Virus record (IMG/VR): IMGVR_UViG_3300029787_000071
Location: 1-53,025 of that record
Direction: 5' to 3' (one strand)
Length of the DNA: 53,025 nt
DNA from: a virus
Below the pieces are notes generated by a model, which did not search any database, was not told where the DNA came from, and was given only the letters and a program-made list of their open reading frames with translations. Positions 1 to 19,979 of the stretch are shown one piece after another (position 1 is the first letter of the stretch; each line of letters begins with the position of its first letter). Both the position numbers and the translations under genes were made by a program.

Positions 1-132
1 TCTGTGTCGGCCCCAGTGCCAAAAGTAATAGCATTACTAAGAAGCTTTTCTATCGCCCCACCCTCTCCATCAGTCCCATCGTGTTGGTGACCTGACGTTG
101 TAAACGCACCATCAATTGCGTTAAATTCTGTA
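1..132. repeat. Left copy of terminal direct repeat
   Basis: Matches 52894-53025 without gaps. Bases 55-132 are identical (78 bases). Bases 1-54 differ at 13 sites, of which 12 are third codon positions of the fibre gene and one is a first position (Ala versus Thr). This fits an assembly overlap of a circular genome with strain variation, or two related fibre genes. Confidence 0.9.
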
Positions 133-206
133 GTAAAGTCAGAAGCCTGAATAGTTTCTCCGTCTACAAAATTAGTGGGATCAGTTTTAGTATACCCTGT
201 ACCCAT
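1..206 (-). CDS. Tail fibre protein, N-terminal end (partial at window edge)
   Basis: This is the start of a tail fibre gene that runs off the left edge of the window. ATG at 206-204 overlaps the stop of the next gene as TAATG. The protein begins MGTGYTKTDPTN and contains HQHDGTDGEGG, a typical N-terminal collar of marine podovirus fibres that attaches to the tail. The frame continues exactly into the gene at the right edge: 74 bases here plus 2149 there make 741 codons including the stop. I infer this is one gene cut by the linear window. A second, related fibre gene is the alternative. Confidence 0.8.
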   Translation of the reverse strand, partial: MGTGYTKTDPTNFVDGETIQASDFTTEFNAIDGAFTTSGHQHDGTDGEGGAIEKLLSNAITFGTGADT

Positions 207-1735
207 TACATTCTACCTCCCGGTGTAAATTCTAGTGAAAACCCTTTTAGTGTGTATGTAGGGTTAGTGCTTGTATCTGAAAATTTTATAGCTATGGCAA
301 ACCCTGAACCCTCTACAGATTGTCTGTAAAGCGGTGTGTACACTGCAGCGTCATACTCTGCCGTTCCCATGATAGCACTGCCGTAGAATGCTGACCCAGA
401 GGGGTCTAGCAAGTCGTACAAAGCAGGGCTTGGCAATAGTATGTCTCCGTAGTCGTATTCAAGGTTCATGTCTACAGAAGACACTGTGCCTGTGCCGATA
501 TAGTTTATAACAACTCTTTGCATATTTTTACGTATGCCTACGTCACCCATATTGTAATCAATAGTTCTATAAATACAGGCAATGTTAGTGCTATCAAATG
601 TGCTACCAGATTCTTGTTTATACACGTAACCCCCGTCGAAGTCTCCGTGTAAAACTAATTCATCGTCCGATATATCACCATGTGTAGCAGACTTGGGCTT
701 TATACCTTTTAAATCTGCATACTCCCACCCAATCTGTCCCGTGTCAGTGCTTCTCTTCAGAACAGCCATTAGTCCCGTAGAGTTAGCCTCCGTGCCAGAG
801 GTAGTCGGATAGTATAGTCTATACTGGCTCTTACGTCTTATTACATGAGACGATACGTTAGAGAGTTGGTCTGCAGACAATTCGTTTAACCTTGACTGCA
901 CCTGTTTAGAAATTGTTCCAAGTTCTGTATCTCCAATCTTTTCAGTACCTGCAACAGTTCTTAGCCCATCAGGCGCAAGGTAGATAAGATCACCTCCTAT
1001 CTCTTGTATGCTAAATCGAGACAGACATCCTATGTTTCTGGTAACAGGTTGGAGAACAAAATCAGAAACGCTTGACCCTGCTAACCTAAAGATGCTGTCT
1101 TTACAGAAGATAACTAAAGTTTCTCTAAATCTAGCTAATCCGACAATTTCATCTCCTATAGATATCTGACCTGCACCTGATGCGGCACTAAAGTCGTTCT
1201 CGCTATATGGCGCACTAAACTGTAACAACTGTCTGTTGCTTGTCATGCCAGCAAAAAACAAATGGTTCTTATGTTCAATAACAACTTCAGGCGCTGTGGG
1301 TTTTGTGCCTGAACCTGAACCTGCACCTCCGGTCAACGCTGTGTAAGTGCTACCATCAAAAATAGCTGCGTCGTTGACTCCATCCGCCATCGCAATCTTT
1401 TCAGTGCCTGTCCAGTTATATACTGTAAAGGTGTACTGCTCTGCGCTAGTGCGATTAGTCACAAAGTTTGTCCATCCAGAGCCTGTGCTTGTTGCTACAT
1501 TTGCACCTCTCGCTGCAACAACTTTATCTTGGAATATAGCCACACCTAGTATGCCACCAGACCCTGACATCTGATTTTCATCAAACTTAGTAAACCCTAG
1601 TATTTTAGAGTATCCTCCTGTAACAGATGGCTCATAGTTTTGCAGAGTGACAGCCTCTCCCGGTTTTGCAACAAACACACTTTTGTCGAGGACAAGTCCA
1701 CCATCGCAGTTTACAGGAAAAGCTTGTATTGGCAT
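206..1735 (-). CDS. Tail stabilization/tubular protein (P22 gp10-like)
   Basis: 509 aa. Probable tail tube or stabilization protein that extends the neck and holds the fibres. It begins MPIQAFPVN and contains an early GGYSKILGF motif, followed by repeated beta-strand-rich segments with KNHLFFAG, ETLVIFCKDSIFRLAG and DLIYLAPDGLRTVAG, the pattern of P22 gp10-like beta-propeller tail proteins. Its start overlaps the stop of the upstream gene at 1735, so the two are translationally coupled. It sits between the adaptor gene and the tail fibre, the expected position. The fold assignment is by pattern, not search. Confidence 0.7.
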   Translation of the reverse strand: MPIQAFPVNCDGGLVLDKSVFVAKPGEAVTLQNYEPSVTGGYSKILGFTKFDENQMSGSGGILGVAIFQDKVVAARGANVATSTGSGWTNFVTNRTSAEQYTFTVYNWTGTEKIAMADGVNDAAIFDGSTYTALTGGAGSGSGTKPTAPEVVIEHKNHLFFAGMTSNRQLLQFSAPYSENDFSAASGAGQISIGDEIVGLARFRETLVIFCKDSIFRLAGSSVSDFVLQPVTRNIGCLSRFSIQEIGGDLIYLAPDGLRTVAGTEKIGDTELGTISKQVQSRLNELSADQLSNVSSHVIRRKSQYRLYYPTTSGTEANSTGLMAVLKRSTDTGQIGWEYADLKGIKPKSATHGDISDDELVLHGDFDGGYVYKQESGSTFDSTNIACIYRTIDYNMGDVGIRKNMQRVVINYIGTGTVSSVDMNLEYDYGDILLPSPALYDLLDPSGSAFYGSAIMGTAEYDAAVYTPLYRQSVEGSGFAIAIKFSDTSTNPTYTLKGFSLEFTPGGRM

Positions 1736-3105
1736 TAAACGGCTCTCATGTAGTCTTTTTGATTTGTTAGCTCAGTACGCATTCTTCGCACACCGTTCTC
1801 ATAATCACGGAATGCAAACTGTGCTGCCTGATCGTTACCACGAAGTATATGCACAAAATATTTTACACGCGCTACGATTACATCATGATAGCGCGTTGGT
1901 ATCTTTGGTGTGTCTGTAAACACACTTAGTTCTGGAGACGAGTCATAAAAATCAAACTCGACATCATATTGTGTATTTTCAGGTATGGGTGTAACGCCAA
2001 AAGCGTTGTCATTTTTAACACGATATACGCACTGAGGAGTGGTAAACCCATCATCGGGTGAGTTAAGGGCTAAGAACTCATTCTCTCTGTATGACGTATG
2101 GTAGCGACCTCTACCTTCATGGTATTCATCAATTGATTTATACTCTAAGGTTTTTGCAGACGCATCATCTTCAAACATCTCAACAAAGTCTATGTCTAAG
2201 TTTGTTGATGCAGTGTTACTAAGACTAATAAAAGTTTGTTGTGTAGATGCAGTAAATGTAGCTGTTTTAATCTCGCCGTTACCCACATTGTCTATAGTAA
2301 ACGTGGTTGACAGATCAGAGTCCTTGTCACTGCTAGAACCTGCAAACACATTCAGTGTTTCTGACGTTGATGACATGGTGCCAGATGCAATCCTTGCAGT
2401 AATTCTATACACTCTGTTTTCAACGGTGGGCAGAGCTTGATCTACGCAACCAGCATTCAAACGCAAAACACCCGCCGCATAAGTTCTGCCACTTACAGAG
2501 TTGCTTAGTGCGGGGGTGCCAGATGTGCTTGTTCCTGCAGGGTCGGAGCTTCTGCTATCCCAATATGATCCTAAAGTAAAAGTTTTGTCAAAGTCTCCCT
2601 GCCTGATTAGGTTTTGAGGGCGCATGAAGAACGTATCGTAGTCAACATCAGTGCAAAAGGTTATATCTCCTGATGTAGCTGTAAATGTAGAAGATACGCC
2701 TGTAAGCGTTTCTGAAGATTGAAAGGTGCCTTCAATAGGTTCAACTAACATGAACTGTTCATCTGAATGACCGCCGTGCGGTGGCACTCTACGCAGAATA
2801 CCTTTTGCAGATGACGTTCCGCCCGTGATCATTTCATTAGGAGTAAACCCACCACCGACACTAGAAACTTCTATTTTTACAGGGTATGTGTACTTACCTC
2901 TGCCACCAAACAGTGTGTAACGTGCGCTAAGAAAGTTCCAAGGCCACTGTATGTATTCTGCCTCAATGTCTCGTATAGCTCTGTTTATATCTTTCTTAAC
3001 TGTCGTCTGTACACCCCGTGTTCCAGACAGACCAGCAGCAGTCTCTGCAATGGTAGTTTCGTTAAGATCAAACAGCACAGCGTTAATTAGTTCTACATAA
3101 TTCAT
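1735..3105 (-). CDS. Head-tail adaptor / tail tubular protein A-like, with inserted beta domain
   Basis: 456 aa. The N-terminal helical part (MNYVELINAVLFDLNET; INRAIRDIEAEYIQWPW) and the C-terminal part (PTRYHDVIVARVKYFVHILRGN) resemble the gp4/gp11-type adaptor that joins portal to tail. Between about residues 170 and 320 lies a beta-rich segment starting NLIRQGDFD and containing YRITARIASGT, which looks like a family 4/9 carbohydrate-binding module. If so, the neck displays a sugar-binding domain. Position next to the stabilization protein supports the tail role. The binding-module call is inference. Confidence 0.65.
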   Translation of the reverse strand: MNYVELINAVLFDLNETTIAETAAGLSGTRGVQTTVKKDINRAIRDIEAEYIQWPWNFLSARYTLFGGRGKYTYPVKIEVSSVGGGFTPNEMITGGTSSAKGILRRVPPHGGHSDEQFMLVEPIEGTFQSSETLTGVSSTFTATSGDITFCTDVDYDTFFMRPQNLIRQGDFDKTFTLGSYWDSRSSDPAGTSTSGTPALSNSVSGRTYAAGVLRLNAGCVDQALPTVENRVYRITARIASGTMSSTSETLNVFAGSSSDKDSDLSTTFTIDNVGNGEIKTATFTASTQQTFISLSNTASTNLDIDFVEMFEDDASAKTLEYKSIDEYHEGRGRYHTSYRENEFLALNSPDDGFTTPQCVYRVKNDNAFGVTPIPENTQYDVEFDFYDSSPELSVFTDTPKIPTRYHDVIVARVKYFVHILRGNDQAAQFAFRDYENGVRRMRTELTNQKDYMRAV

Positions 3106-3111
3106 GATTAT

Positions 3112-3468
3112 CTACGCCTGATTTGCTAAGAAGAGTTCGTCAATTGTTAACACCGCCTCTAGTCGATCAGCGGTCCCTGCAGTTAACTTAATAGCATCCC
3201 CTTCGTTAAGATTTAATTCTAACAGCAAAAGCAGGTGATCATTTGCTCCAATACTTTTACTGCCTAATAATTTAAAAGTTGCACTAGCACTCGCATCAGT
3301 AAACTCTAAAGTTACAGGTGTAGCGTTGCCTGAAGTTTCACAAATCTGTATAGTTTTTAAAACAGCATCATGACCTGAAGGCACTGTGTACACAGTCGTC
3401 TGACTTGTGCTGCTAAGAGCAACAGCAGCATTTCTAAGTCTTACGGCTCTTGATAGAGTTGAAGTCAC
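3112..3468 (-). CDS. Small virion structural protein, beta-rich
   Basis: 118 aa. No named family recognised with certainty. The sequence is dominated by beta-strand patterns (TVYTVPSGHDAVLKTI, TLEFTDASASATFKLL, GDAIKLTAG), typical of small decoration or fibre-base proteins that present a beta sandwich. It lies in the tail module, overlaps the start of the neighbouring periplasmic protein gene by 4 bases (ATGA type), and has no signal peptide or membrane segment. A structural role is inferred from context. Confidence 0.6.
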   Translation of the reverse strand: MTSTLSRAVRLRNAAVALSSTSQTTVYTVPSGHDAVLKTIQICETSGNATPVTLEFTDASASATFKLLGSKSIGANDHLLLLLELNLNEGDAIKLTAGTADRLEAVLTIDELFLANQA

Positions 3469-3788
3469 AAAGGCATTCCTTTGGGTTTATTTATAACAGG
3501 TTTAAAATTTGTGCCAATAGATGCTACACATTCTATTTCAGGATTTATATCGGACACGCCCATCATTGTGTAAGACCCAGTTTTTGGGTTTATGTATAAA
3601 GTAAAAGTAATCATGAATTGAGTATCTCTTAACGTAAATGCGGGATACTCTCCATGTTTTGCGGCTTGAGTTGAAATACTGCCAAGCGGAAAGCACATAT
3701 TGTTAAAGGTTTGCGCCTTTACAAAAGTGATGCCACAATACAAAACACCAACAACATACATTGAAAATAGAACTATTCGTAATCTCAT
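3465..3788 (-). CDS. Small exported protein with signal peptide
   Basis: 107 aa from the ATG at 3788, chosen because it overlaps the upstream stop as TAATG; an in-frame start 12 bases earlier is possible. The N-terminus (MRLRIVLFSMYVVGVLYCGITFVKA, quoted in part: MRLRIVLF...GITFVKA) is a classical signal peptide with probable cleavage after VKA. The mature part has two cysteines and beta-like segments. It would act in the host envelope or periplasm. Function unknown; an entry-blocking or lysis-related role is possible but unsupported. Confidence 0.6.
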   Translation of the reverse strand: MRLRIVLFSMYVVGVLYCGITFVKAQTFNNMCFPLGSISTQAAKHGEYPAFTLRDTQFMITFTLYINPKTGSYTMMGVSDINPEIECVASIGTNFKPVINKPKGMPL

Positions 3789-4423
3789 TACATACCCCAA
3801 GTTTTCTTTAAATACGTCTGAACCAGAGTTGATTTTGTAAACATATCTTTTTGAGCTTTCATTAGATACGCATTTACTTCATACATGTTTTGCAAAATAA
3901 AAGACTGCTCATATGACACGTTAGAAGACATCCATCCGATTATGTTCTGCCTAAACCCCTTAGTAACTTTCTCCACACCGTGCGGGTAGATGATAGGAAA
4001 GATCACAGCTTCACCTGCGTTTAGTTTCTTACCTATTCTTCCTACCGGCGTGGCTAAAGTAAATTCTCCCCCTTCGTAGTCATCCGTTAAATTTATGCTC
4101 CAGCCGTAGTCAAAAAATACATTGTTTGATTTTGGCTGCGCTTTGAAAGCGTCTACGTGCAAGTCGTAGTAATCGCCTTCAAGGTATTTGTTATAAAAAT
4201 TTACTGATACTCTGGTAGGACAATACACGCTGTCTATGTAGTGCGTATCGTACAGCTTATCCGTAATTAGCTTCCTTACCTCGTCTGGGACACTCTTAGA
4301 TTCTTTGTTACTTTTTATGTCCTCTAGATCAGGAGCAGTATCTTCCCCATTCTTAAACGTGTTCTGGTCAATCTTGTCCAGACAAAAATTTACTTCATCT
4401 TCAGTTAATAGCTTGATAAACAT
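3788..4423 (-). CDS. 2-oxoglutarate/Fe(II)-dependent oxygenase (prolyl-4-hydroxylase-like)
   Basis: 211 aa. Contains the iron-binding facial triad H89-x-D91 (in YYDLHVDAF) and H148 (in YPHGVEKVTKG), with R158 in position to bind 2-oxoglutarate, followed by the usual GWMSS ending of the PKHD-type domain. These enzymes hydroxylate proteins or nucleic-acid bases using O2 and 2-oxoglutarate. A strong ribosome site (GGAGG, 8 bases before ATG) precedes it. The gene lies among tail and capsid genes, so a virion protein could be the substrate, but this is inference. A second such oxygenase is at 21249-21884. Confidence 0.85.
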   Translation of the reverse strand: MFIKLLTEDEVNFCLDKIDQNTFKNGEDTAPDLEDIKSNKESKSVPDEVRKLITDKLYDTHYIDSVYCPTRVSVNFYNKYLEGDYYDLHVDAFKAQPKSNNVFFDYGWSINLTDDYEGGEFTLATPVGRIGKKLNAGEAVIFPIIYPHGVEKVTKGFRQNIIGWMSSNVSYEQSFILQNMYEVNAYLMKAQKDMFTKSTLVQTYLKKTWGM

Positions 4424-4458
4424 ATATACCTCCGTCAGTTCACATCAAAGCAAGAAGG

Positions 4459-4483
4459 GTGGGGTTTTTAAAAGGAACCCCAC
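4459..4483 (-). terminator. Stem-loop after the capsid genes (weak terminator or processing site)
   Basis: Perfect 8-bp stem, GTGGGGTT paired with AACCCCAC, with a 9-base loop. It lies between the decoration protein gene and the oxygenase gene in the leftward transcript. The T run after the stem is poor, so it may be a leaky terminator or RNA processing site that lowers expression downstream of the capsid genes. Confidence 0.5.
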
Positions 4484-4500
4484 AGAAACCTTTAGTACGA

Positions 4501-4980
4501 TTACGTACCCGACGACACCGTGGCCGCTTCCGTCAGCGGGTTGCGCGAAATGTCAACCATGCAAACGTGAATGCGGAAACGAGCAGCACTTTCACCCGTT
4601 GAGCCACCATCAAGGATGAGGGCGTCAATCGTGTCAGCACTGGTAAAGATACGTGCGTTGGAACCAGAAGCGCCAACGGCGGCTTCTAGGAATGGCGTAA
4701 AGCCAGCAGCAAGCACAGAACCGTCAACAAAACAGTCTACGTCACCACCAGTTACACCAACGTCCAGCGTGATCTGACCATTACCACGCGCTTCAAGAAC
4801 TTCAAGCGCACCAGCAACAATCATGGTATCCGCAGGAACATCGACCAACTGGACGACATCTCCACCCGTACCGCCATCAGCGGTATCGTGGACCTGCGAA
4901 GTGATCACATAAGGGGTAGGCATCCGTGAAGGATGACCAACGGTTCCACCGCCATTGATGGTACGATCAATAGTAGCCAT
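4501..4980 (-). CDS. Probable capsid decoration / head protein
   Basis: 159 aa, beta-rich and glycine-rich, beginning MATIDRTINGGG with segments TPYVITSQVHDTADGG and ITLDVGVTGGDVD. It follows directly downstream of the major capsid gene (14-base gap), the usual place for a head decoration or minor head protein. No catalytic motif, signal or membrane segment is present. The assignment rests on position and composition; the family was not identified. Confidence 0.6.
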   Translation of the reverse strand: MATIDRTINGGGTVGHPSRMPTPYVITSQVHDTADGGTGGDVVQLVDVPADTMIVAGALEVLEARGNGQITLDVGVTGGDVDCFVDGSVLAAGFTPFLEAAVGASGSNARIFTSADTIDALILDGGSTGESAARFRIHVCMVDISRNPLTEAATVSSGT

Positions 4981-4994
4981 GATTCATCCCTCCC

Positions 4995-5969
4995 TTAGCT
5001 GTAGTCTACAATGCCGAGAACAAGTGACTCAGGGCGCAGGACTTTACGTCCATACACATGAAGACCACGAACAACGTCTGCAAACGCATCGGGGTCACGA
5101 ATCACTTCAGTCTTAGCAATTGAGTTAGCGGTTGCACAAGCGGAAATGTGACCAGCAAGAACTACGTTCTCACCAGTTCCAACGCCTGAAACCGAAACCA
5201 TGTCCGTGGTAGTCGTAGCATCAGCCGACTGCCGCAGAGCATTGGATTTGTAAAGCGTGAAGCCCATAATCTTCTGGTTTGTTACCAGACCATTACGTAG
5301 CGGTGACGTATCATCGCCAGTAATCTGAACTTCAACGATCTTTGCACCTGCTTTGTACAGGTTCTCGTAGACACGGGGGGGTGCTACAAACCAACGGTTC
5401 TCTTCAGGAACGTCTTGCTCATCGAGCTTACGAGCCATGAGAGCCATTAGGTTTACAACGTCATCACCGGCATCAGAACCTGTAACAGTAACAGGAGTAC
5501 CAGAAGTACCAAGGTTGGAGTCCGTTTCAATCGAACCGGAAGCACCTTTGATACCCGCGCCATCAAGCATAGCTTGAAGCACGTTTTTGTCGTAGTTACG
5601 CTTCAAGGAGAAAGCACCTGAAGAGGTAGCCATCGCCTCAAAGTTAACGTGGGATTGCCGCTCTTCAATGTCATCGACTTTGAACGCGAACGCTTGAGCC
5701 TGATCTACTTCCAGAGTAATCTCATCGTCAGCCAAGTCCTGCGGAGTAACCACAGCACCACGAGTGTACGCTGAGATGGAGACAGTAGGTTCTTTAATGA
5801 TACGAACCGTGTCACCATAATTCTCAATCTCCCCGGCATAGTCAGTGTTTGTAATATCTTCAACAACTGACGCACGGCGGAAAAATTTAAGAACCTTCTG
5901 GCTATAGATTTCGGCTTGGAAATTACCGGACGGTAGATTACCGTATCCGGCGGATACACCAATAGCCAT
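4995..5969 (-). CDS. Major capsid protein
   Basis: 324 aa. Probable HK97-fold shell protein. The N-terminal region (SQKVLKFFRRASVVEDITN), a central stretch with EIENYGDTVRIIKEP and the later VPEENRWFVAPPRVYENL are typical of T7 gp10/HMO-like major capsid proteins. It lies between the scaffold gene (upstream) and the decoration gene, and codon use is regular. A ribosome site (AAGG) precedes MAIGVSAGYG. The ordering portal-scaffold-capsid across 4995-13021 supports the call. Confidence 0.9.
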   Translation of the reverse strand: MAIGVSAGYGNLPSGNFQAEIYSQKVLKFFRRASVVEDITNTDYAGEIENYGDTVRIIKEPTVSISAYTRGAVVTPQDLADDEITLEVDQAQAFAFKVDDIEERQSHVNFEAMATSSGAFSLKRNYDKNVLQAMLDGAGIKGASGSIETDSNLGTSGTPVTVTGSDAGDDVVNLMALMARKLDEQDVPEENRWFVAPPRVYENLYKAGAKIVEVQITGDDTSPLRNGLVTNQKIMGFTLYKSNALRQSADATTTTDMVSVSGVGTGENVVLAGHISACATANSIAKTEVIRDPDAFADVVRGLHVYGRKVLRPESLVLGIVDYS

Positions 5970-5992
5970 TTCCTTAACCTTTCTCTATAAGT

Positions 5993-6829
5993 TTAGCCAT
6001 TTACGATACGTCCCTCCGCATTTGCTAAGTCAAGCTCTGCTTCAAGCTTGGCAAACTCCTGCGGTTTGAGTTTACGTATCTCTGAGGTCGTCCATACTTT
6101 TTTATTAGCATCGCTATTAGTAGAGACGTTAACAGGGGTAGTCCTAGTAACAGCCTCTGCAGCAGCAGCTAACTGTTTTTTAGAGGGACGCCCTCTGGGT
6201 TTCTTTGTACTAGCAGTGTCTGCTTTGTACAAATCTAGAACGCGAGAAGCGTACTGAACATCGCTGTTATTTTTGGTAATACCATCCGCGATACTAGGTG
6301 GCTGCTTGCCCAACCATTCTTTAAACTGGTCTGACTTCTTGATATCAGAGAAGTCTGGGTGCAGGGCTAGTAGTTCTTGGTAAGCACTTTTAGCCTGTAG
6401 CTGCTCTTCTTTTTTAGAAAGACGCTCAATCTCTTGTTTAAGTTCTTGAACTTCTTTTGTAGCATTTTTAGAAGCTAAAGTTTCTACTACATTGTAAACG
6501 TCAGGATAGTTCTCTTTGAAAGATGCAATGTCTGCATCATCCTCATACTCTTCCTCCTGTTGAGGTTGAGCAGTAAGCGTTTCACGTTCCATCTTCCATT
6601 CATGGAGTTTGGAGTCGTAGTGCTTCTTGAGATCATCGTAGCGTTTCTTGTAGTCATGCTCTTCCGTCTTTACCTCTGTAGAAACGGAAATAGTTTCATC
6701 ATCCATAACCTCGTCTTCAGTTTCACCTTCTTCTAGGGTAGCCTCTTCGTTTGGGATATCGTCCTTGTAAACGTCTGCACGATAGCTGCCACGATAAGGG
6801 CCTAGAGTTTCCTGTTCTTGGGTAGTCAT
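5993..6829 (-). CDS. Capsid scaffolding protein
   Basis: 278 aa, highly charged and helical. The first third is very acidic (residues about 20-60), the middle is a coiled coil (residues about 60-150, rich in K/E), and there is an AT-hook-like element KKPRGRPSKK at 209-218. It directly precedes the capsid gene with a strong GGAGG ribosome site, the standard scaffold position. It would nucleate procapsid assembly and then leave the head. The AT-hook could touch DNA, which is unusual for a scaffold; its meaning is inference. Confidence 0.8.
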   Translation of the reverse strand: MTTQEQETLGPYRGSYRADVYKDDIPNEEATLEEGETEDEVMDDETISVSTEVKTEEHDYKKRYDDLKKHYDSKLHEWKMERETLTAQPQQEEEYEDDADIASFKENYPDVYNVVETLASKNATKEVQELKQEIERLSKKEEQLQAKSAYQELLALHPDFSDIKKSDQFKEWLGKQPPSIADGITKNNSDVQYASRVLDLYKADTASTKKPRGRPSKKQLAAAAEAVTRTTPVNVSTNSDANKKVWTTSEIRKLKPQEFAKLEAELDLANAEGRIVNG

Positions 6830-6888
6830 TTTTCCTCCTTGCGGGGCCTCAGTGGGGTAGCCGCAGTTGGGTTAGTCTAGCAGGGCCG

Positions 6889-8361
6889 CTAGTTAGCGGG
6901 TGGCTGCGTCTGTGTCCGCAATCTTGGATCTTGATCGGGACTTTCTGCCATAAAGCTTCTATTAACGCTTTCTGGCGAAACTCTAATATTGTCTGTCTGT
7001 GCTTCCTGCGCTGGGGGGGCTTCCTCTAACGCAAGGGGTGTTCTTCCTTCGGGTGGGCTGTTAGGGAGCCTTGGTCGAAGTTTGTAAAATATGTGTTCAA
7101 ACTTAGTCTTTGGAACTTTATCAAATGTTGTTTGCTCATACTGGTCGCTATTAGCAATATTATCTCTAAACCATGAACTAGTTGAAGTTTGAGGATTCCA
7201 GAAATAGGTAGAGCCATCTGTTAAATCTTTTAGTTTACCTTCCCTTGCAGATTTAACTAAATCTCTAGCAATCTTTAACTGTTTTTCATCTAATTTTTTA
7301 TTTTTTTGAGATTTAAAACCATTAAATTGCACGGGATTTAGATTATCTTCTAGCTTCGTAACCTTTTTTCCTTTGTCATCTCTAAAATTAGGATCGGCCA
7401 TTCTATTAAACATTACGTTCAATACTTTTTGCAGAGCCTCTTTACTTTTAAAAACTCCTGCTTCAGCAACTAAAGTTCTAGATATTTCTTCATCTCTATT
7501 TTTTAATTTTTTTTTACCCGGCGGGTATCCAGTTGCAGCCCTTACAGGAACTTCCTGCTTTTGCTGGGGCTGTTGCTCTTGCTCCTCTAGCTTCTTCTCT
7601 GTCTCTGCTTTGCCGCTATTATTTATCTTTTCAAGCAGGTCCGTGCCTATGACTTCGGCTAGCTCTGGCGGTATGTGATACTCTTTGTTTGAAGCAAGTA
7701 TCTTCTGATCTCCGTTTACCTGTTGTGCAGGTTTAGTGATAGCGGCCTTGTCTATCTCTATACCGTCTTTCTCTTTCAGGTATTCGATAGCAGGTTCAAT
7801 GATACGTTCTTCAAAGTCTTTTCTACCAACCTTTGCAAGAGCGGCTGCATTTATGATAAACGCGCCTTCTCTTACATTCATGGGTACATCATCAGCTACA
7901 CCTGTCTGATCTTCTGCACCCGGTTGATCAATCATACCTGCCACCTGATCACCCATTGCTAGCTGTTGCATCTGTTCTCGCATCGGGCTGGCTACAGGTA
8001 ATGATGGTACTTTTACAGGTGGTTGGTCTTCAGTGGCAGTAGCCTGTCCAACATTAGTCATAGGGTCAGAGAGATCAGGATCGGGATCGGGGTCAGGATC
8101 GGTGCGGTTTTCAAACTCCTGCATCTCTTGAATATTTCTTTCTCTTGGAGATAAACGCCCCATACCACCAGCTTCTTCTAAGTCATCAGGAGAATCCATC
8201 GGTCCTTGGTTTTCACCTGTAGACAGAGTAACACCTAAGCTCATGGCAAACGCTTGCAGCGCAGAAGGTTCGTTGTTTTCAATAATCTGTACAACCTGTG
8301 CCTGCGCCTCTTGCGACATCTGTTGCATCTTAGCTGTAAACTGGTCTTGTGTTATTTCCAT
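6889..8361 (-). CDS. Virion-associated protein with SleB-like cell-wall hydrolase domain
   Basis: 490 aa. Residues about 1-280 are low-complexity and acidic with an ordered block VPMNVREGAFIINAAALAKVG. Residues about 285-425 resemble the SleB/hydrolase_2 fold: RTLVAEAG with its likely catalytic Glu, a downstream NVMFNRM helix, LNPVQFNGF and STYFWNP. This would cleave peptidoglycan during DNA entry, or at lysis. It is the only recognisable peptidoglycan hydrolase in the window. It lies 2 bases from the stop of the upstream 844-aa virion gene. The fold call is from motifs only. Confidence 0.7.
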   Translation of the reverse strand: MEITQDQFTAKMQQMSQEAQAQVVQIIENNEPSALQAFAMSLGVTLSTGENQGPMDSPDDLEEAGGMGRLSPRERNIQEMQEFENRTDPDPDPDPDLSDPMTNVGQATATEDQPPVKVPSLPVASPMREQMQQLAMGDQVAGMIDQPGAEDQTGVADDVPMNVREGAFIINAAALAKVGRKDFEERIIEPAIEYLKEKDGIEIDKAAITKPAQQVNGDQKILASNKEYHIPPELAEVIGTDLLEKINNSGKAETEKKLEEQEQQPQQKQEVPVRAATGYPPGKKKLKNRDEEISRTLVAEAGVFKSKEALQKVLNVMFNRMADPNFRDDKGKKVTKLEDNLNPVQFNGFKSQKNKKLDEKQLKIARDLVKSAREGKLKDLTDGSTYFWNPQTSTSSWFRDNIANSDQYEQTTFDKVPKTKFEHIFYKLRPRLPNSPPEGRTPLALEEAPPAQEAQTDNIRVSPESVNRSFMAESPDQDPRLRTQTQPPAN

Positions 8362-8363
8362 AA

Positions 8364-10898
8364 TTATTTAGCCTTAAATTTTTCACAAACGGTTAGCATC
8401 AATCCTGTTAAGAAAAACTGAGCCGTCCTTCTATAGTAGTTGACAGAGTATCGCCAACCGCTTTTTAGGCCACGACCATAGGACACAAAGTCTTTAAACT
8501 CTTGGTAATGGTTTTCTGCCTCGCCTCGTTTAATCGCCTTTTTACCAGCGTGTCTGTAGCCTTTTCTAAACAATTCACCGTACCATTTACCGTGATACTT
8601 ACGAGCGCACCAAACTTCTGCTTTTGCTTTGTCTCGCGCTGAGAAGCTTTTAGCTGCAACTGCATGTGTCGCTATTACACAAGTGCCGCTATCAGGACCA
8701 GCACCCGTGTCGCTTTCATCTAATTCACCCTCACCAAAATCAATGTCTGGTGCATCCATCGCTGCCGCTGCACCAGCACCCTCGTATCCCGGCGCATCCG
8801 TGCCGCCTGTGCCTATGCTGCCAGCCTTGTCACCATATCCGAAATCTTCTTCAGTTCCGCCAGAAAAAGAAGCACCGGCCATGCTCTTTGCAACTAGGTC
8901 AGCCACCCTTTTCTGTTCTGGATCATTAGGGTCCATCGTATTCTTACCCGTTATTGACATAGTTTGTTCAGCAATATCTATGCTCAAGTTAGACGGGTTT
9001 TGGCTATTGTAACCTCCTGCACCATAACTAAAGGAGTTCGTTGCCGCAGCGGATGCTGCATCTGATAATGCTTGTTGCTGCGCAGCAGTAAAGCCTTTTG
9101 CACGCTCTAAATCGGTCGTCGCAAACGCTATATCAGTTAAAGGTTCATCTTTAAGACCGGCTAATTCCAGCTCACTGGCCGCATAAGCAGCCATGCCTGC
9201 TCTAGAAAGACCCATTGCTGATAATTCATCTACTCCCATAGTTGATAAGTCTTGCAGTTGACTTGCAAAAGAAGCGGATAGAGTTGCGGGTGCTGTGCTA
9301 ACTTCTAATCCGGTCATCCCTCGATCTGCAAGACTACCAAAGTCTATATCAAGGCCCTGTACTCCAGCTTGATCAGCCACGCTATTGTAAGCATCCACAA
9401 AACCTAAGCTTGCAGTCATAGCCTCTTGATTCATAGCTTCAGCAATCTGGCCTAGATCATCAGTATCCAAACCTCTGCTACTTGCATAGTTCTTAAGTGT
9501 AGATTGTATTGCTGCATTGGCAATGTCTATATCTTCAAAGTCAAGATAGGCTTGAACAACTGCAGCTTGATTTATATCCTCAATGCTTATGTTATTTGTT
9601 GTTATTCCTTTACCCGCAACTTGATCAGCTAAGGCATTCATATCAAATTGCAGATTGCCAATAGCGCCGGGTACTTCTGAAAAATCTAAATCAATCGCAG
9701 TCACGTTGGTTTGATCACTAGGGTCTGCAAAGCCTGTCATTCCTGCTGAAGAGGCTGTAGGCCCACTGAAAGAAACTCCCGCAGTGCTAAAGGCGTTTGC
9801 CATACCAACGGCTCTATCGCTAACCGCCTCATTGTAACCGAGTTTATCTAAGGCAAATTGAGATACATTATAAAAAGCTTTTATGGGAGCGGGCATCAGT
9901 GCTTCTACAAAACCCGGAGTTACTAACTGCCCTGTGTTTTTATCGAAGTTAAAACCTACCGTGCCGCTTGGCAGGTTAAAGGTAAACACTTGAGGGTCTA
10001 AAGTGCCAAACTCCATCTGCCTCCCATAAGCTTCTAGAGTCTGATCAGGGTTCGTTATTGCAGTAACGATTCCTTCAATATACTCTCCAACATTTTTAGT
10101 TGCTTGACTAATTAAACCGCTTACAGTTACATTTCTATTAGCAAGATCGGCTACGTTTGCAGCCTGTTGTCCAAGCGAAAGGGCGGTAGAGGTTGCACTG
10201 AGTGCGCTAGGAATATCAGTTATTTCTGTATTTAGTGCGTCTTTCACACTATTGAAACCTCCAAATACACCTGCAACACCTGTACTTGATAACGCTCCTG
10301 AAGCTACATTACTAGCCAAACCGCTGAAACCAGCGCCCGGACCAAAGGCTCCAAAAGCGCCTCCAACAAGACCAGCAGCCAGCCCCGGATTAGTGAGATC
10401 AGATATATCTTGAGCTTCTGTACTTGTCGCTGTATCAAGACCGATATCTCCAGCATCATCGCCTGATGTAACACTAGGAGGCCCAAAGACCTGTTCAAAC
10501 TGTTGTTGTGGCTGTGGCCTATCCTGAAATTGTGACGTAAAGGTAGCAAGATCACTGGCAACTGTGGACGCCTCTCCTAAGATGCTACTAAAGGTATTTG
10601 AGTCAAACTCATTAATACGGCTAGCCGCAGCTTCTTTAAAAGCATCCACGCTGCTAGGATCAGAGAAGTTTACTTCGTCAAGAAGATCACCAAACAAATC
10701 CTCAACAGCTAACTGTGATGTAGAAGCTGTAGCTACAGATAGATCATCCTTTCGACGCTTGACCCCCAGCCCCTCAATATCAAGAGACTGAGAACCACCG
10801 CCTACGTCAATGGTAGCTTCAGGAATAGCTTCCATAGTCACAGGTTTAGCGGATACCGCTCCTGCTCCTTGAAGTGCTTCTGCTATGTTAGTCGCCAC
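8364..10898 (-). CDS. Large virion protein, Ala/Ser/Gly-rich
   Basis: 844 aa, unidentified. It is rich in Ala, Ser, Thr and Asp, with a glycine/alanine-rich hydrophobic stretch around residues 170-225 that could penetrate a membrane. The C-terminal 110 residues are different: basic and aromatic, with CVIATHAVAAKS and KYHGKWYGELFRKGY, a module seen at the ends of other phage structural proteins. Lying between portal and hydrolase genes, it may be an ejected internal protein. No enzyme motif found. Confidence 0.65.
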   Translation of the reverse strand: MATNIAEALQGAGAVSAKPVTMEAIPEATIDVGGGSQSLDIEGLGVKRRKDDLSVATASTSQLAVEDLFGDLLDEVNFSDPSSVDAFKEAAASRINEFDSNTFSSILGEASTVASDLATFTSQFQDRPQPQQQFEQVFGPPSVTSGDDAGDIGLDTATSTEAQDISDLTNPGLAAGLVGGAFGAFGPGAGFSGLASNVASGALSSTGVAGVFGGFNSVKDALNTEITDIPSALSATSTALSLGQQAANVADLANRNVTVSGLISQATKNVGEYIEGIVTAITNPDQTLEAYGRQMEFGTLDPQVFTFNLPSGTVGFNFDKNTGQLVTPGFVEALMPAPIKAFYNVSQFALDKLGYNEAVSDRAVGMANAFSTAGVSFSGPTASSAGMTGFADPSDQTNVTAIDLDFSEVPGAIGNLQFDMNALADQVAGKGITTNNISIEDINQAAVVQAYLDFEDIDIANAAIQSTLKNYASSRGLDTDDLGQIAEAMNQEAMTASLGFVDAYNSVADQAGVQGLDIDFGSLADRGMTGLEVSTAPATLSASFASQLQDLSTMGVDELSAMGLSRAGMAAYAASELELAGLKDEPLTDIAFATTDLERAKGFTAAQQQALSDAASAAATNSFSYGAGGYNSQNPSNLSIDIAEQTMSITGKNTMDPNDPEQKRVADLVAKSMAGASFSGGTEEDFGYGDKAGSIGTGGTDAPGYEGAGAAAAMDAPDIDFGEGELDESDTGAGPDSGTCVIATHAVAAKSFSARDKAKAEVWCARKYHGKWYGELFRKGYRHAGKKAIKRGEAENHYQEFKDFVSYGRGLKSGWRYSVNYYRRTAQFFLTGLMLTVCEKFKAK

Positions 10899-11127
10899 GT
10901 TTGCTGTACTCTTTCTGTTGAGTATTAACCTGCGTCTTCAGGGATAGGAGGTGATCCACCACCTGCACTTTGCCCTGCAGAGAGCGCATCTCTGAGTCCG
11001 ATTTCTCCACCACCAGCAGGGCCTGATGCCTGTTCTTGAGATCCTTGAGGTAGTCCTCCAGACTGCCCCATGCCGCCTGATTGTTCACCAGCGGCAGCAG
11101 GGTCTGGCATGTTTCCTTGTTGAGCAT
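10888..11127 (-). CDS. Small protein overprinted on the end of the portal gene
   Basis: 79 aa, beginning MLNKETCQTLL and continuing with a heptad-like helical pattern (WGSLEDYLKDLKNRH; LLSLKTQVNTQQ). It overlaps the last 203 bases of the portal gene in another frame, and its end overlaps the start of the 844-aa gene. In that overlap the portal protein is a low-complexity Gly/Gln/Pro-rich tail, whereas this frame is an ordinary helical protein. Short proteins of this type next to portal genes are known in other phages, from memory. Function unknown. Confidence 0.65.
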   Translation of the reverse strand: MLNKETCQTLLPLVNNQAAWGSLEDYLKDLKNRHQALLVVEKSDSEMRSLQGKVQVVDHLLSLKTQVNTQQKEYSKRGD

Positions 11128-13021
11128 TTAATCCTCTCAATACTTCTGCAAAGATTTGTGCATCGTTGATATCATTTACCAACAGATCAGGATCAATGTC
11201 CTGTGCAATGGCTAGCTCCCGCACAAGGTTTGGAATCTTGATAAAGGGTGCAAGCATGGGGTTTGCCACTGTCTGTAGCAGCGCGGTTAAACGCTGGCTG
11301 CGGACTTCCTTCTGCATGACTGCAGCGGTTCCCTGTGGCTTGATCTCCAAATCTCCCTGTATCTCAGGACGATCATCAGTAAACTGCATATTCCAAAAGA
11401 ACATGCACTCACCGAGCGGCTTGAGAAGAAAATCGTCAACATTTTTTATTACAGTTTTTACACTGAGGTTAGCACCACCCAGCAACATACTTAATCCTGC
11501 AGCGGTACGTCCTGTGCCAGACACGCCCGTTTGTCCGTGCATAATGCTGGGCAGTCCAGTTTCTTCATCGGCTAATTGTCGTGCAGCCTGATACATCTGT
11601 ATGTTTTCGCCAGCGGTGTTTGGAAACTTTACAGCGTTGATAGCTGTACCAGTAACACCAGACTGACGCCTAAACACTTTACCCGGATAGATATCATAGT
11701 TCTGTCCGGGTACAAGAGATGCCTCGTCTACATCAAATACTACATTACCAGCTAGTGCTAAGTTGTCAATAGCCATTCTTACATGACCATTCATTAGTAG
11801 CTGGGCGTCCTCCATGTTCTCAGGTATACCAACGCCAAACAACTGGTAAGGGTTAATTTCATATGGCGTTGCAAAATACGGAATACGGTAAGGTACAAAC
11901 GGATTGAGGACTAATCGTAGAACCTCATTGCCACAAACCCATACATTAACAGGCACCTCTGCAAGATCACTAACCTGCATTGGAATACCCATCTCTTCCA
12001 CAAGCTGGCTGTCCATGTTGCCCCAGAACTCAAGCACCTCGTACCTGTCAACGGCAGCAAGGTCTTCCAAGCTCTCAGCACGAATAGTGTCTTCAAAGTA
12101 TTTGTCCGTGTAATTAGGACCAGCGTTAAGACAGGTTGCAACAGCATCAGGATTAAAGAACGGCTTGTCCATCAAGTCCCGCATCTGTGACCTGTTTAGT
12201 CGGTGGCGCTGAATTACATAGGAGCAATCATCCACACTAGTAGCGGTGGGGTCTGGGTAAAAGTTCCAGCATGAAACCGACTCAAGGCGGGGTACAAGCT
12301 TTTTATACGGGTTGTAGTTTTTATCGTTATCCCATCTATGTAGAGTTTTACTCTCATTGAGCGGTCCCTTTACAATGCCTGTACCAAGAAGGGCGCACTC
12401 AAAGAGAGAGTGGCGCAGTATGTTCGTGGCGTTGTTTTCATGCAGTTGGTCATGGATGAGCTTTTCCATGTGCCGTGCTGTTTCGCGTGAAGGAGATATC
12501 TGAGGCTCACCCAAACGGCTTGGGCCTTCCTGCAGATCAATACCCTCATACTTTTCAGCTAGTCCTGCTAGCGGAGAAGCCTCAGTGGCCCCCGGTGGCA
12601 TATCACGGCCATCGCCGGGAAAACCGTAGGGGTCCATCGTAGGCTCTTCTTGCTGTTGTGGAGGTACAGGAGCTTTGCTTAAATGTGCAAACTCCGCTAC
12701 ACCTTCAGGCACTGGGCTAGGCTCAACAACGAGTGGGAACTTTTTGTTAGCAAAAAGCACATCAATTATCTGCCCATAAGCAGCGAGAACTTTTGTTTTG
12801 GTAATCTTAACGAACACTCTACTGTTCTCAGATTCACGGAACTGAGTTGTAGAGTCGTAGATACCTCTAAAGTTTTTGTAGGCTTTTAGCCAGCGTTGTT
12901 CATGCTGATAGCGGCCATGCTCTGCTTCTTCAAACTTTGACTTAACTGTGCCAACTACGTTTGTAGAAGCCTCATCAACAAAAGCTGCTGCTGTGATATC
13001 GCCTAAAGGTGAATCCTCCAT
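10925..13021 (-). CDS. Portal protein
   Basis: 698 aa. Forms the dodecameric vertex channel for DNA packaging. Features: N-terminal RWLKAYKNFRGIYDS, SENSRVFVKITKTKVLAAYGQI, the central VSCWNFYPDPTA and YVIQRHRLNRSQMRDLMDKP, and a C-terminal helical part (PLGECMFFWNMQF) typical of podovirus portals. The last 65 residues are Gly/Pro/Gln-rich and share DNA with the 10888-11127 gene. It lies two small genes downstream of the terminase large subunit. Confidence 0.85.
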   Translation of the reverse strand: MEDSPLGDITAAAFVDEASTNVVGTVKSKFEEAEHGRYQHEQRWLKAYKNFRGIYDSTTQFRESENSRVFVKITKTKVLAAYGQIIDVLFANKKFPLVVEPSPVPEGVAEFAHLSKAPVPPQQQEEPTMDPYGFPGDGRDMPPGATEASPLAGLAEKYEGIDLQEGPSRLGEPQISPSRETARHMEKLIHDQLHENNATNILRHSLFECALLGTGIVKGPLNESKTLHRWDNDKNYNPYKKLVPRLESVSCWNFYPDPTATSVDDCSYVIQRHRLNRSQMRDLMDKPFFNPDAVATCLNAGPNYTDKYFEDTIRAESLEDLAAVDRYEVLEFWGNMDSQLVEEMGIPMQVSDLAEVPVNVWVCGNEVLRLVLNPFVPYRIPYFATPYEINPYQLFGVGIPENMEDAQLLMNGHVRMAIDNLALAGNVVFDVDEASLVPGQNYDIYPGKVFRRQSGVTGTAINAVKFPNTAGENIQMYQAARQLADEETGLPSIMHGQTGVSGTGRTAAGLSMLLGGANLSVKTVIKNVDDFLLKPLGECMFFWNMQFTDDRPEIQGDLEIKPQGTAAVMQKEVRSQRLTALLQTVANPMLAPFIKIPNLVRELAIAQDIDPDLLVNDINDAQIFAEVLRGLNAQQGNMPDPAAAGEQSGGMGQSGGLPQGSQEQASGPAGGGEIGLRDALSAGQSAGGGSPPIPEDAG

Positions 13022-13038
13022 AGGACTTTCCTCTTTGC

Positions 13039-13251
13039 TTAGTAGTCTTTTTCGTCAGCCATGCGGAAGACTGCCGGATCGACCATGTTGGTCGCTTGAC
13101 GAGGCATGTCCACCTGCAGCGCGTCACGATCAATCGGGCCGATAAGCATCTGCTCAAGACCTTCACGGTAGAGAGAACCTTCAGCCGCTTCGCTGAGTTC
13201 ACCCTGCTTGCTCATCATACTCATAATGTAATCTGCTCCATACGCTTTCAT
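13039..13251 (-). CDS. Small conserved-looking protein before the portal
   Basis: 70 aa, beginning MKAYGADYIMSMMSKQGE, with EGLEQMLIGPIDRDAL in the centre. AGGAAAACC precedes the ATG as a ribosome site. It is in line with flanking structural genes, with gaps of 17 and 15 bases. No family recognised; probably a minor head or assembly protein by context. Confidence 0.6.
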   Translation of the reverse strand: MKAYGADYIMSMMSKQGELSEAAEGSLYREGLEQMLIGPIDRDALQVDMPRQATNMVDPAVFRMADEKDY

Positions 13252-13266
13252 AGGTTTTCCTTTCTG

Positions 13267-14586
13267 TTAATCTAAGTATAAAAATCCTCTGGGGCCTTTT
13301 AGACGGTCAGAGACTTGTTGTTTTTCCATAGCGGAAAAAGCTTCTTCATCAGCACTTCTTAATTCTTCGTAATCGGGTCCAGCCCTTTTTCGTGCTTCAA
13401 AACCTTCCATTGTAGCATCAGCCACCGGAGTTGCTGCGGCTAATTCATCAATAACCGTTAATCCAAGACCAACACCGGGAATCAACGCTTTAGCTGTTCC
13501 TCTACCACCCTTTTTGATAATGCCCAGTATGCTTTTAGTTCTCTCAGACATCGGCTTCGGCTCATCAGAGGGAAGTGGTCTGGGCTGTGGTTTCTCTTGT
13601 TCTTCAGGAGGTGAAATAAACTTAGCTGTTCTTTCTTGTATTGTTGGTGTTTCAGGAATAGCAGGTCTGGCTTCTCGTCGCGCAGCCGCCTTTCTCTGCC
13701 TGTCCTGCATCTCAATCTGAGGAGTGATTTTTGTTTGAACATATATAGGAAGAGATACTTTTTTAGCTTCCTCTATACCTTTATCAGAAATAACAAGGTT
13801 ATGAGGACGCACTCTACTTTTATCCTCAATAATTTTTCCATTCTTGTCCCTACCCGCTATAACAGGAACACCGCCTTTTTCTTTTATGGCAAATATTTCT
13901 TTGCCCCGTCTAGAGCGTCTATTCTGACCACCTTCAGAAAGGGTGCCAAGCTCTGCATCTAACTTTTTAAAAGTAAATAAATTCTTTTCATCTTTACCTG
14001 TAGGGGGGTCATCATCTTTAAGAAGACCGCTCTCGTACATGTACTGTTCATATGCTCTAAATTCATCAAGCTGTTTAGTAATACTTTCTATACCATCAGG
14101 AAAAGCTTCGTTAATATACCTATTTAAATCTCCTGCTCTATCCCTATTTGTTTTTCTAAAAGCATTAAAACGGTTTGTTAGTTCTGTAATTGATCCTCTT
14201 ACATTCTTTCCCGTCTCCTGCATCATCTTTAATACAAGATTAACCCCATCATCAGTTATATTAATGGGGGTTTTAATAGCTACCCTTCCTGATTTAGCTT
14301 TAGGTGAACCAGTTACGTTAGGTGTTAATTGTTTTCCCGGCTCTACACCAGCCTTTATCTCTGCAGCGGTGGCGCGCCTTTTAGGTAGCATATCCTCAAG
14401 ACTAAGGTCTTCAAAACTTTCTATTCCTGCTTTTTGTGCTGCCGCTTGAAAGTCCAAAGCAATATTAGTGGTAAATTTCCCTCTGTATTTTTTTTGTAAA
14501 CTCTCAAAATCATCTGCATTTAAAGAAGACCTATTCTGAGCTTTTATCTCTTCAATTACTGTTCTAATAGCATCTGCTTTTTTCAT
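13267..14586 (-). CDS. Hypothetical protein between terminase and portal
   Basis: 439 aa, not recognised. Strongly charged and mostly helical: residues 1-60 (KADAIRTVIEEIKAQN) and about 120-190 form helices; residues about 290-350 are Pro/Arg/Glu-rich and likely disordered; near residue 370 a short hydrophobic stretch (GTAKALIPGVGLGLTVIDEL) could insert in a membrane. It starts 3 bases after the terminase stop. Virion or DNA-ejection protein is a guess from position. Confidence 0.6.
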   Translation of the reverse strand: MKKADAIRTVIEEIKAQNRSSLNADDFESLQKKYRGKFTTNIALDFQAAAQKAGIESFEDLSLEDMLPKRRATAAEIKAGVEPGKQLTPNVTGSPKAKSGRVAIKTPINITDDGVNLVLKMMQETGKNVRGSITELTNRFNAFRKTNRDRAGDLNRYINEAFPDGIESITKQLDEFRAYEQYMYESGLLKDDDPPTGKDEKNLFTFKKLDAELGTLSEGGQNRRSRRGKEIFAIKEKGGVPVIAGRDKNGKIIEDKSRVRPHNLVISDKGIEEAKKVSLPIYVQTKITPQIEMQDRQRKAAARREARPAIPETPTIQERTAKFISPPEEQEKPQPRPLPSDEPKPMSERTKSILGIIKKGGRGTAKALIPGVGLGLTVIDELAAATPVADATMEGFEARKRAGPDYEELRSADEEAFSAMEKQQVSDRLKGPRGFLYLD

Positions 14587-14588
14587 GC

Positions 14589-16361
14589 TTAGTAACCAAA
14601 CGTAGAGTCAAACGGTTTTGGCTTTGCCTCTTGCATCTTGTTCATCATTGAGTTGATGGTTAGATGTCCTCTTGCGCGTGTCATGCACATGTATCGCAAA
14701 GCGTCGTAGGCGTGGTCATCTGCTTTTGTATCTACATCTTCAGGGTTTGTCTTTGACAGTGGTAGCCCTGAGAGAGTACGTATCAGATGTGTGCAGGTTG
14801 AAAGTATCTTTATTCTTGGTTGTTGTGTAAACTCGTCTACCTGCAAACGCCTGTGTAGTTCTAGTTTACCTGCAATCCTGTTTCTATCTGATGGAGTAAA
14901 TCTAGCTCCACAACGAATGAGAGTTTCAGCGATTGAAGGTCCGGTGCCTGTCCTGTTCCAACAGGAAGAGTCAAGCACCGAGTAGTACATGCCGGGATCA
15001 CCTCCCTCAAGATTTACAATGATATTGGCTAGAGTTTCTGCAGTCTGTCCTTTGCCGTAGAACTCCCTGTAAATCCAAAGGGTATCATCCCAATCAACTG
15101 CGCCCCACAGGACACAAGAGGGGGCGGCATACCCGTAGTCTGCTGCACGAAGGCGTAACCAACCTTGGGGTATCTGTGCCTGTGAGGCTTCCACAACATG
15201 AATGCTGCGGGAAAACTCTGGGAACGCCGCTCCCTCTGCGACATCCCAATCCCCTTCTAGAAGCCGCCTTCGTTCGACTTCTGGGAGCGACCTCAACATG
15301 GCTTCATATTCACCAGTTTCAGCGAGGTAGGGGTTATCAGTCAGACGCGCCGGAATGAATTTACGAAGAAACAGCGGCTGACCTGCTTTACCGTTAGTTG
15401 CTGTCTCAGGCCACAAAAGAGCGTTACCTGTATCAACATCGGTAGCTGCAAACGGTGTGTTAGGCGGTGCAGGGTCAATGTACATCTTCTTGACCCACCA
15501 ACCACCTACCCCTCCGGGGTTTCCTGTGCAGCGCATATATGCGTCAATCTGCGGGTCCGTTGTACGAAGTCTGGAGCGCAGATACTCCCACACGTAGGGA
15601 GTTGGGTAGTGCGTTATCTCGTCAATACCAATCCAAGTAAAAGCCTGACCTTGGTAGCGTGTTACGTCCTTGTCTTTGTCGAGGTAGGAGAACCATGCCG
15701 TAGCCCCAGACGGGAACTGCCACATAGCCTTGGACTCTCTGAATACGGCACCGGGAAAAGCTTTTGGATAGAGTTGTTTGCTTTTATCAACCAGTTCTGT
15801 AAGCTCGTCCAAAGTACGACGAATAATAAGAGCGCGATGATTGGGGTTGCTACAGTAGCGAAGCAGATCAGCAAGAAGAGCATAAGACTTGCCCCCGCCA
15901 GCAGCGCCGCCATAAAAAACATCCCTTTCAGGGCTTGCCAAAAAGTCAGTCTGCGGCCCCGAGTTTGGTTTGAAGATAACCTCTGCTTCATCCTCTACTA
16001 ACTCCCTTACGGGTTTTGGTACATTCTGTAGTGTGGTATCTTCAATGACCTTAGCACCGTTCTTGTTGAACAAAGCCTGTTCAACTTTCTTGATGCTGTC
16101 TTTCTTCTCTTTGGCCTTAGATGCTTTCTTCTGTGCTTTCTTCTTTGCCCTGTCCGCGTTGCGAACCGCAGCGGCAGAGGCCCGTCTCGCTCTTTCTTTT
16201 GCAGAGAGACGGTAGTTACCCTTTTCGCCCTCGGCTAATTTGGGACGGCCACGCTTGCGCTTGACAGGCTCTTCTCTTACGTCAGCTTTATCAACCAAAG
16301 GCAGGTGACTTTCGCTTGACGTTTTTCTTGTGCCTTCGCTCTGGTGATCTAAATCGTCCAA
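14589..16361 (-). CDS. terL: Terminase large subunit
   Basis: 590 aa, the packaging motor. Walker A is GGAAGGGKS at 151-159 and Walker B TWIGIDEIT at 242-250; the C-terminal nuclease has AADYGYAAP, SVLDSSC and the late KADDHAYDALRYM. The first 100 residues are a lysine/arginine-rich extension with an AT-hook core (KRKRGRPK at 35-42), unusual for this family. The start is TTG at 16361 with AAAGG upstream; no ATG fits. A small basic gene overlaps its first 71 bases. Confidence 0.92.
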   Translation of the reverse strand: MDDLDHQSEGTRKTSSESHLPLVDKADVREEPVKRKRGRPKLAEGEKGNYRLSAKERARRASAAAVRNADRAKKKAQKKASKAKEKKDSIKKVEQALFNKNGAKVIEDTTLQNVPKPVRELVEDEAEVIFKPNSGPQTDFLASPERDVFYGGAAGGGKSYALLADLLRYCSNPNHRALIIRRTLDELTELVDKSKQLYPKAFPGAVFRESKAMWQFPSGATAWFSYLDKDKDVTRYQGQAFTWIGIDEITHYPTPYVWEYLRSRLRTTDPQIDAYMRCTGNPGGVGGWWVKKMYIDPAPPNTPFAATDVDTGNALLWPETATNGKAGQPLFLRKFIPARLTDNPYLAETGEYEAMLRSLPEVERRRLLEGDWDVAEGAAFPEFSRSIHVVEASQAQIPQGWLRLRAADYGYAAPSCVLWGAVDWDDTLWIYREFYGKGQTAETLANIIVNLEGGDPGMYYSVLDSSCWNRTGTGPSIAETLIRCGARFTPSDRNRIAGKLELHRRLQVDEFTQQPRIKILSTCTHLIRTLSGLPLSKTNPEDVDTKADDHAYDALRYMCMTRARGHLTINSMMNKMQEAKPKPFDSTFGY

Positions 16362-16425
16362 GAGTTTTACCTTTGTGAAATACTATTTTACTATTGCCGC
16401 TTGTTTTCTTTTTCTTTGTTGCCAT
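16291..16425 (-). CDS. Tiny basic protein overlapping the terminase start
   Basis: 44 aa, 14 lysines or arginines or more, beginning MATKKKKTSGNSKIVFHKGK. Its ATG overlaps the stop of the upstream gene as TAATG, which argues for translation. The last 71 bases are shared with the terminase gene in a different frame. It belongs by composition to the basic-protein cluster of 16.3-20.7 kb. Function unknown. Confidence 0.5.
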   Translation of the reverse strand: MATKKKKTSGNSKIVFHKGKTLGRFRSPERRHKKNVKRKSPAFG

Positions 16426-17006
16426 TACTTTAACTTTGGTTTACGAACCCCACCGCCTTTTGCGTATGGTTTTACTTTGCCTCCCTTTGCAAACTTTAAT
16501 CTTACATTTCCTCCAATATAGCTTTCACCACTTTCCGGGTCGTACCTGCCTTGAATACCCGCTGTTCCTTTTACTCTTCCAAAATCAACAGGTCTTTCAT
16601 ATCTCGCCCCTACAGCGGGCGGTCTGCGCTGTGCTTCCTCAAGCCCCATACCCTTAAAATCGAGATTCAGATTTAGTCCCTCTGGTAGCTGGCGATTAAC
16701 AAACTTCTCGCCCTGACGGGCAATCTCTTTTACCGCATCTCTGGACGCCTTGTCCTTCAACGCTCTGGCAGAGTACTTCTCAGGATTAAGAAAGTAATCT
16801 GCAGCTATATAAGCAGCCCCCATAGCACCTTTTGCTAGCTGCTCTCTGCTTACATCTTTTTCTACATCAGGGTTAGTAATACCAATGTCCCGTGAACGAG
16901 CGGTAAAAGCCGTCTCTTGTGCTCTCTCAGACTGATCAATCTGATACTTTAAACCATCTCTGATAACGGTGACAGCCTGCTTTAGTTGTTGTTTTTGGCT
17001 AGCCAT
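16425..17006 (-). CDS. Basic protein with C-terminal AKGGGVRKPK tag
   Basis: 193 aa. A helical N-terminal region (KQQLKQAVTVIRDGLKYQ; EKDVSREQLAKGAMGAAYIAADYF) is followed by a region with GIQGRYDPESGESYIGGNVRLKF, then a tag with FAKGGKVKPYAKGGGVRKPK at the very end. The same tag recurs in at least three other proteins of this cluster. No known domain. It overlaps both neighbours by a few bases, so it is part of the late operon. Confidence 0.65.
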   Translation of the reverse strand: MASQKQQLKQAVTVIRDGLKYQIDQSERAQETAFTARSRDIGITNPDVEKDVSREQLAKGAMGAAYIAADYFLNPEKYSARALKDKASRDAVKEIARQGEKFVNRQLPEGLNLNLDFKGMGLEEAQRRPPAVGARYERPVDFGRVKGTAGIQGRYDPESGESYIGGNVRLKFAKGGKVKPYAKGGGVRKPKLK

Positions 17007-18889: not shown

Positions 18890-18894
18890 TGGTT

Positions 18895-19554: not shown

Positions 19555-19576
19555 AATACTCTCTACTAAGGTTGGG

Positions 19577-19978: not shown

Positions 19979-19979
19979 T

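Follow-up and report, generated by a model that had tools for sequence, protein, structure and literature searches.

The 53,025-base contig analysed here, which is the whole of record G000 and is called the window below, very probably represents the circular map of one phage nearly in full, opened inside its single tail fibre gene at a place where two versions of that gene meet. From comparison with related sequences, we consider it highly likely that the genome is circular and HMO-2011-like, that the contig was opened at two fibre alleles, and that the right-hand allele was imported by homologous recombination.

An ungapped alignment of window positions 1-132 with 52894-53025 has 13 mismatches. 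A stretch of 78 bases (55-132 and 52948-53025) is identical, and all mismatches (window 6, 9, 12, 15, 18, 27, 30, 32, 39, 45, 48, 51 and 54) fall within the other 54 bases, an abrupt step from 0/78 to 13/54 differences (Fisher p = 3e-6) in which the 78 bases mark the point where the contig stops, so that identity between strains may extend further. In the phase set by the minus-strand fibre ATG (206-204), 12 mismatches occupy third codon positions and one (window 32) a first position. These figures reproduce exactly the overlap described in the first-pass annotation, which also called the differences silent; this holds for all changed codons except one, in which GCT (Ala) on the left faces ACC (Thr) on the right. 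The overlap is not due to chance, since no longer direct repeat pair is listed anywhere in the window and a blastn comparison of one end with the other gives E = 7e-48. When the ends are joined, the 740-residue frame claimed earlier is recovered with one terminal stop, starting at 206 right after the tail gene at 206-1735. The features on which the argument turns, all on the minus strand, are the following.

1-54, minus strand: left-end fibre allele "A", apparently the native type, coding for ...IEKLLSNAITFGTGADT; it differs from L086 at 3/54 positions, from L087 at 5/54 and from the right end at 13/54.
55-132, minus strand: 78 bases identical to the right end by the end alignment; N-terminal part of the fibre gene.
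55-71 (right-end copy 52948-52964), minus strand: 17-base tract that the left end, the right end, L188 and L086 share without a difference and within which the right end passes from one lineage to the other.
133-206, minus strand: start of the fibre gene, its ATG (206-204) having one base in common with the stop codon of the gene at 206-1735.
206-1735, minus strand: gene for a tail structural protein, immediately preceding the fibre gene here as in HMO-2011, HTVC033P and HTVC115P.
50877-53025, minus strand: body of the fibre gene with the right-end allele; together with 206-133 it gives 740 aa.
52894-52947, minus strand: right-end fibre allele "B"; 0/54 differences from L188, 1/54 from L003.
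52848-52947, minus strand: putative imported patch of at least about 100 bp, in which 26/26 informative sites follow L188 and not L086/L087.
52948-53025, minus strand: right-end copy of the 78 shared bases, by the end alignment.

Predicted genes in the window include those for a terminase, a portal, a coat protein, a DnaB-like helicase and a ribonucleotide reductase, along with a family A DNA polymerase with a DnaJ-like insert. Because megablast of window positions 1-20000 against phages gave zero matches, relatives were sought with protein searches. The best relatives of the gene at 206-1735 were HMO-2011 and Pelagibacter and Roseobacter phages, and the terminase large subunit is 49.5% identical to that of HTVC033P over residues 59-590 of 590, which places it within the HMO-2011 type as defined for this protein (at least 25% identity over at least 80% of its length). 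The direct succession of tail gene and fibre gene that is typical of this type is also present. Exonuclease, DnaJ-like and polymerase domains combined in one protein, another trait of the type, are absent from the window, and we call it HMO-2011-like because the domain order is kept but the polymerase domains sit in two overlapping ORFs. HTVC033P matches only 20 of the 47 window proteins (46 ORFs plus the joined fibre), so the case for completeness rests on layout and length: the closed window would measure 52,893 bases against 53,075 for the HTVC033P record. The contig very probably represents a marine phage genome of HMO-2011-like type in nearly its full extent, about 52.9 kb once closed.

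The circular closure proposed in the first-pass annotation is supported by this length, by gene order in three cultured relatives and by two contigs that span the junction. In HTVC033P, HTVC115P and HMO-2011, a fibre or structural gene comes immediately after the relative of the gene at 206-1735, in the same orientation, and the N-terminus of the joined fibre matches HTVC033P just past the match of the upstream gene. Contigs L086 and L087, which come from other records, continue without a break from the gene upstream, past the junction and on into the fibre gene; L086 could be aligned from window position 2591 across the junction to 51439 with 93.8% identity over 4046 bases.

Contigs related to the window also separate the two ends by lineage. 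Positions in the fibre gene are indexed here from the A of its ATG (index 0, window 206), and the relatives are taken from a table in which identical sequences are shown once and rows below 70% identity are dropped. Over indices 0-151, the window differs from L086 at 3 and from L087 at 1 of 152 positions, and from L188 and L003 at 28 and 27. Over the next 54 bases, the left end has 3, 5, 13 and 14 differences from L086, L087, L188 and L003, respectively, and the right end 14, 14, 0 and 1. The suggestion of a mixed population thus gains support from independent contigs that carry the end alleles, the left type in L086 and L087 and the right type in L188 and L003; that both alleles coexisted in one sample is what we infer from the presence of both in one contig.

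The change of affinity is sharpest at informative sites, defined as those where L086 and L087 agree against L188. In the joined right end, every such site before index 152 (27/27) follows L086/L087 and every one from index 152 to 251 (26/26) follows L188; so few lineage switches arose in 0 of 100,000 shuffles. At the 13 informative sites of the left end from index 152 on, L086/L087 are followed at 10, L188 at 1 and neither at 2. Around the switch, L188 has 17 bases in common with the left end and L086, and 8 with L087. Because of these per-end affinities, we read the left end as carrying the allele native to the backbone, like that of L086/L087, and the right end as probably a real recombinant form. 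Farther along, at indices 272-391, all these lineages hardly differ (L087, L086 and L188 show 5, 6 and 3 differences, respectively, in 120 positions), a likeness that suggests a second exchange near index 251-272. An exact 35-base piece of the shared region had no match in viral contigs; L086 and L087 are each one base off this piece. A search of genome contigs with the fibre N-terminus gave four weak partial matches, at 45-55% identity. A diversity-generating retroelement was set aside as a source of the variation, nearly all differences being at third codon positions.

Other explanations would account for two similar ends. The first-pass annotation had named a pair of paralogous fibre genes as its alternative, and in this or the related form of a tandem repeat the ends would be two copies of one N-terminal segment in a single phage. 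There is a partial precedent in relative L097, where a 46-residue fibre module (residues 55-100) occurs twice in frame within one gene (L097:4442-4579), but that duplication excludes the 78 identical bases. Elsewhere the N-terminal segment behaves as single-copy: within the window it is found only at the two ends, an N-terminal query gave one match each in all eight related records searched whole, four of them 47-58 kb, and among 198 loci (a set that includes the window's own two and some contigs more than once) 165 matched at 1e-8 and 173 at 1e-3, with a second match only in L097. The relatives that span the junction have one fibre gene, and the two copies in the window match alleles of different lineages, all of which makes paralogues or a tandem repeat very improbable. 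We give even less credence to a true terminal redundancy of a linear virion genome, with a direct terminal repeat of 132 bp, despite the terminal redundancy reported for the distant relative PhiM6 (PMC6256558). Two such copies in one genome should be identical, but 13/132 positions differ here, with 24% divergence over 54 bases; the end copies again match different lineages, and they lie inside a fibre gene that is continuous in relatives.

A more serious competitor accepts the circular genome and the mixed population and disputes only the natural recombinant. In that account, "lineage 1 + A" and "lineage 2 + B" strains were stitched together across the 17-base tract by a short-k assembler or by PCR, and the right-end junction is an artefact. 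Both parental combinations do occur as separate contigs, and the identical tract lies exactly at the switch. Since a search of viral contigs for the exact right-end junction (lineage-1 upstream sequence followed by allele B) returned no second record, the recombinant junction is known from a single contig end of 78 bases. However, a tract of 17 bases falls short of even the lowest k (20 or 21) among the assembler settings given in PMC10914622, and the affinity of L086 and L087 changes again about 100 bases downstream, at index 251-272, where the lineages become similar, which points to real and repeated exchange. We therefore regard stitching as unlikely, although clearly less so than paralogy or terminal redundancy.

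If the natural recombinant is accepted, the events leading to the contig can be reconstructed as follows. Phage strains with a common host would recombine homologously where the fibre gene codes for the conserved N-terminal region, the crossover falling inside the 17-base identical tract that codes for the conserved DGEGGA motif of this region. Upstream of window position 55, both versions are identical over the 78 bases present in each; downstream, the left end, of which 54 bases were kept, would continue with the native allele and the right end with the allele imported from a related lineage. With native and recombinant forms both in the sample, the assembly graph would branch after the shared bases and the contig would be cut there, and the junction of lineage-1 upstream sequence and allele B would presumably exist in the phage population and not be a chimera made by assembly or PCR. 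A broader version, in which the 17-base DGEGGA tract is a preferred crossover site where coexisting ocean strains swap the remainder of the fibre gene again and again, and in which the assembly caught one such exchange with its native and recombinant forms side by side in one sample, strikes us as speculative and rather doubtful.

The behaviour of assemblers at graph branches has been described (PMC10914622), as has strain mixture as a barrier to viral assembly (PMC8018248). The overlaps left at such points are reported to be maxK long for metaSPAdes and MEGAHIT and maxK-1 for IDBA_UD (PMC10914622); the 78 exact bases found here, followed by 54 divergent ones, do not equal exactly any usual k value. 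Related contigs displayed no clear tendency to break at this place, with 2 of 11 ending within about 2.2 kb of the fibre gene start in a hand-picked set of loci with an N-terminal match on contigs of at least 44 kb; this set does not include L121 and L139, which are second loci on contigs that it already contains, or contigs detected through the polymerase search alone.

The first-pass annotation was right that the fibre gene varies among strains, and it understated the case: the difference at the ends appears to be a recombination boundary with very little effect on the protein, and strong protein divergence is found downstream. In L087, the upstream gene and fibre N-terminus are as in the window and the distal fibre is different, the first five 60-residue blocks being 93-100% identical to the window fibre and the last three 20-39%. 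This is a probable swap of the receptor-binding part, judging from the block identities. The L183 fibre has a different central part, with blocks of 60-72%. Separately, the 740-aa window fibre is without 31 residues, one internal repeat copy, at about 51439-51509, where L188, L086, L186 and L003 have fibres of 771 aa each; the missing copy may reflect either natural loss or the assembler's collapse of a repeat.

Two side observations concern other parts of the window. Two ORFs that overlap by 4 nt make up the family A DNA polymerase, one for the exonuclease (30005-30559, 184 aa) and one for the DnaJ-like and polymerase parts (30556-32094, 512 aa, TTG start), where HTVC033P has a single gene. 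The second ORF contains the motifs CEDCGGTG and CKTCGGTG, and the Pfam DnaJ_CXXCXGXG match to it (E 5e-5) is below the curated cut-off. An upstream ORF in another frame that ends 4-17 nt past the polymerase start was seen in 40 of the 44 relatives read (two of 46 were left out), three of the other four having too little upstream sequence. Because polymerases >540 aa were used for the tree in PMC9038755, split forms could have been left out of it. At 18696-18877, the window contains direct repeats with 86-nt units rich in GCCATG/CCTTTAGCC, which probably encode a lysine- and glycine-rich repetitive protein.

Imperfect overlaps between contig ends, which are missed by a strict test for end repeats, can thus still reveal a nearly complete phage genome, and the position of a contig break can show where a host-recognition gene has a recombination boundary. 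The contig offers a glimpse of gene swapping between strains within what is otherwise an ordinary, well-understood effect in viral metagenomics. The recombination boundary is an addition to the earlier observation, and all elements are of known kinds. The portions available of the literature on HMO-2011-type phages, mosaic fibres, metagenomic islands, contig end overlap and microdiversity, including PMC6918029 and PMC11094077, hold no description of this contig.

Compared with the HMO-2011-type phages described in PMC9038755 (HMO-2011, HTVC033P and HTVC115P), the window has in common the order of head, tail and fibre genes, a family A DNA polymerase, a DnaJ-like domain with two CXXCXGXG motifs and a genome of about 53 kb; it differs in having the polymerase split into two overlapping genes and in a fibre protein that is mostly unlike the fibres of cultured members. 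The pattern seen between L087 and the window, with a conserved N-terminal part and an exchanged distal part, resembles that of modular mosaic phage receptor-binding proteins (PMC10684548), whereas the exchange at the contig ends is almost silent in the protein. As in the cases of contig breakage at within-population variants treated with COBRA (PMC10914622) and VirION2 (PMC8018248), the ends share sequence at a graph branch and strain mixtures fragment viral genomes. Unlike in those cases, the overlap here extends 54 bases past the branch, so that each allele survives in part, and comparison with relatives locates the branch at a recombination boundary.
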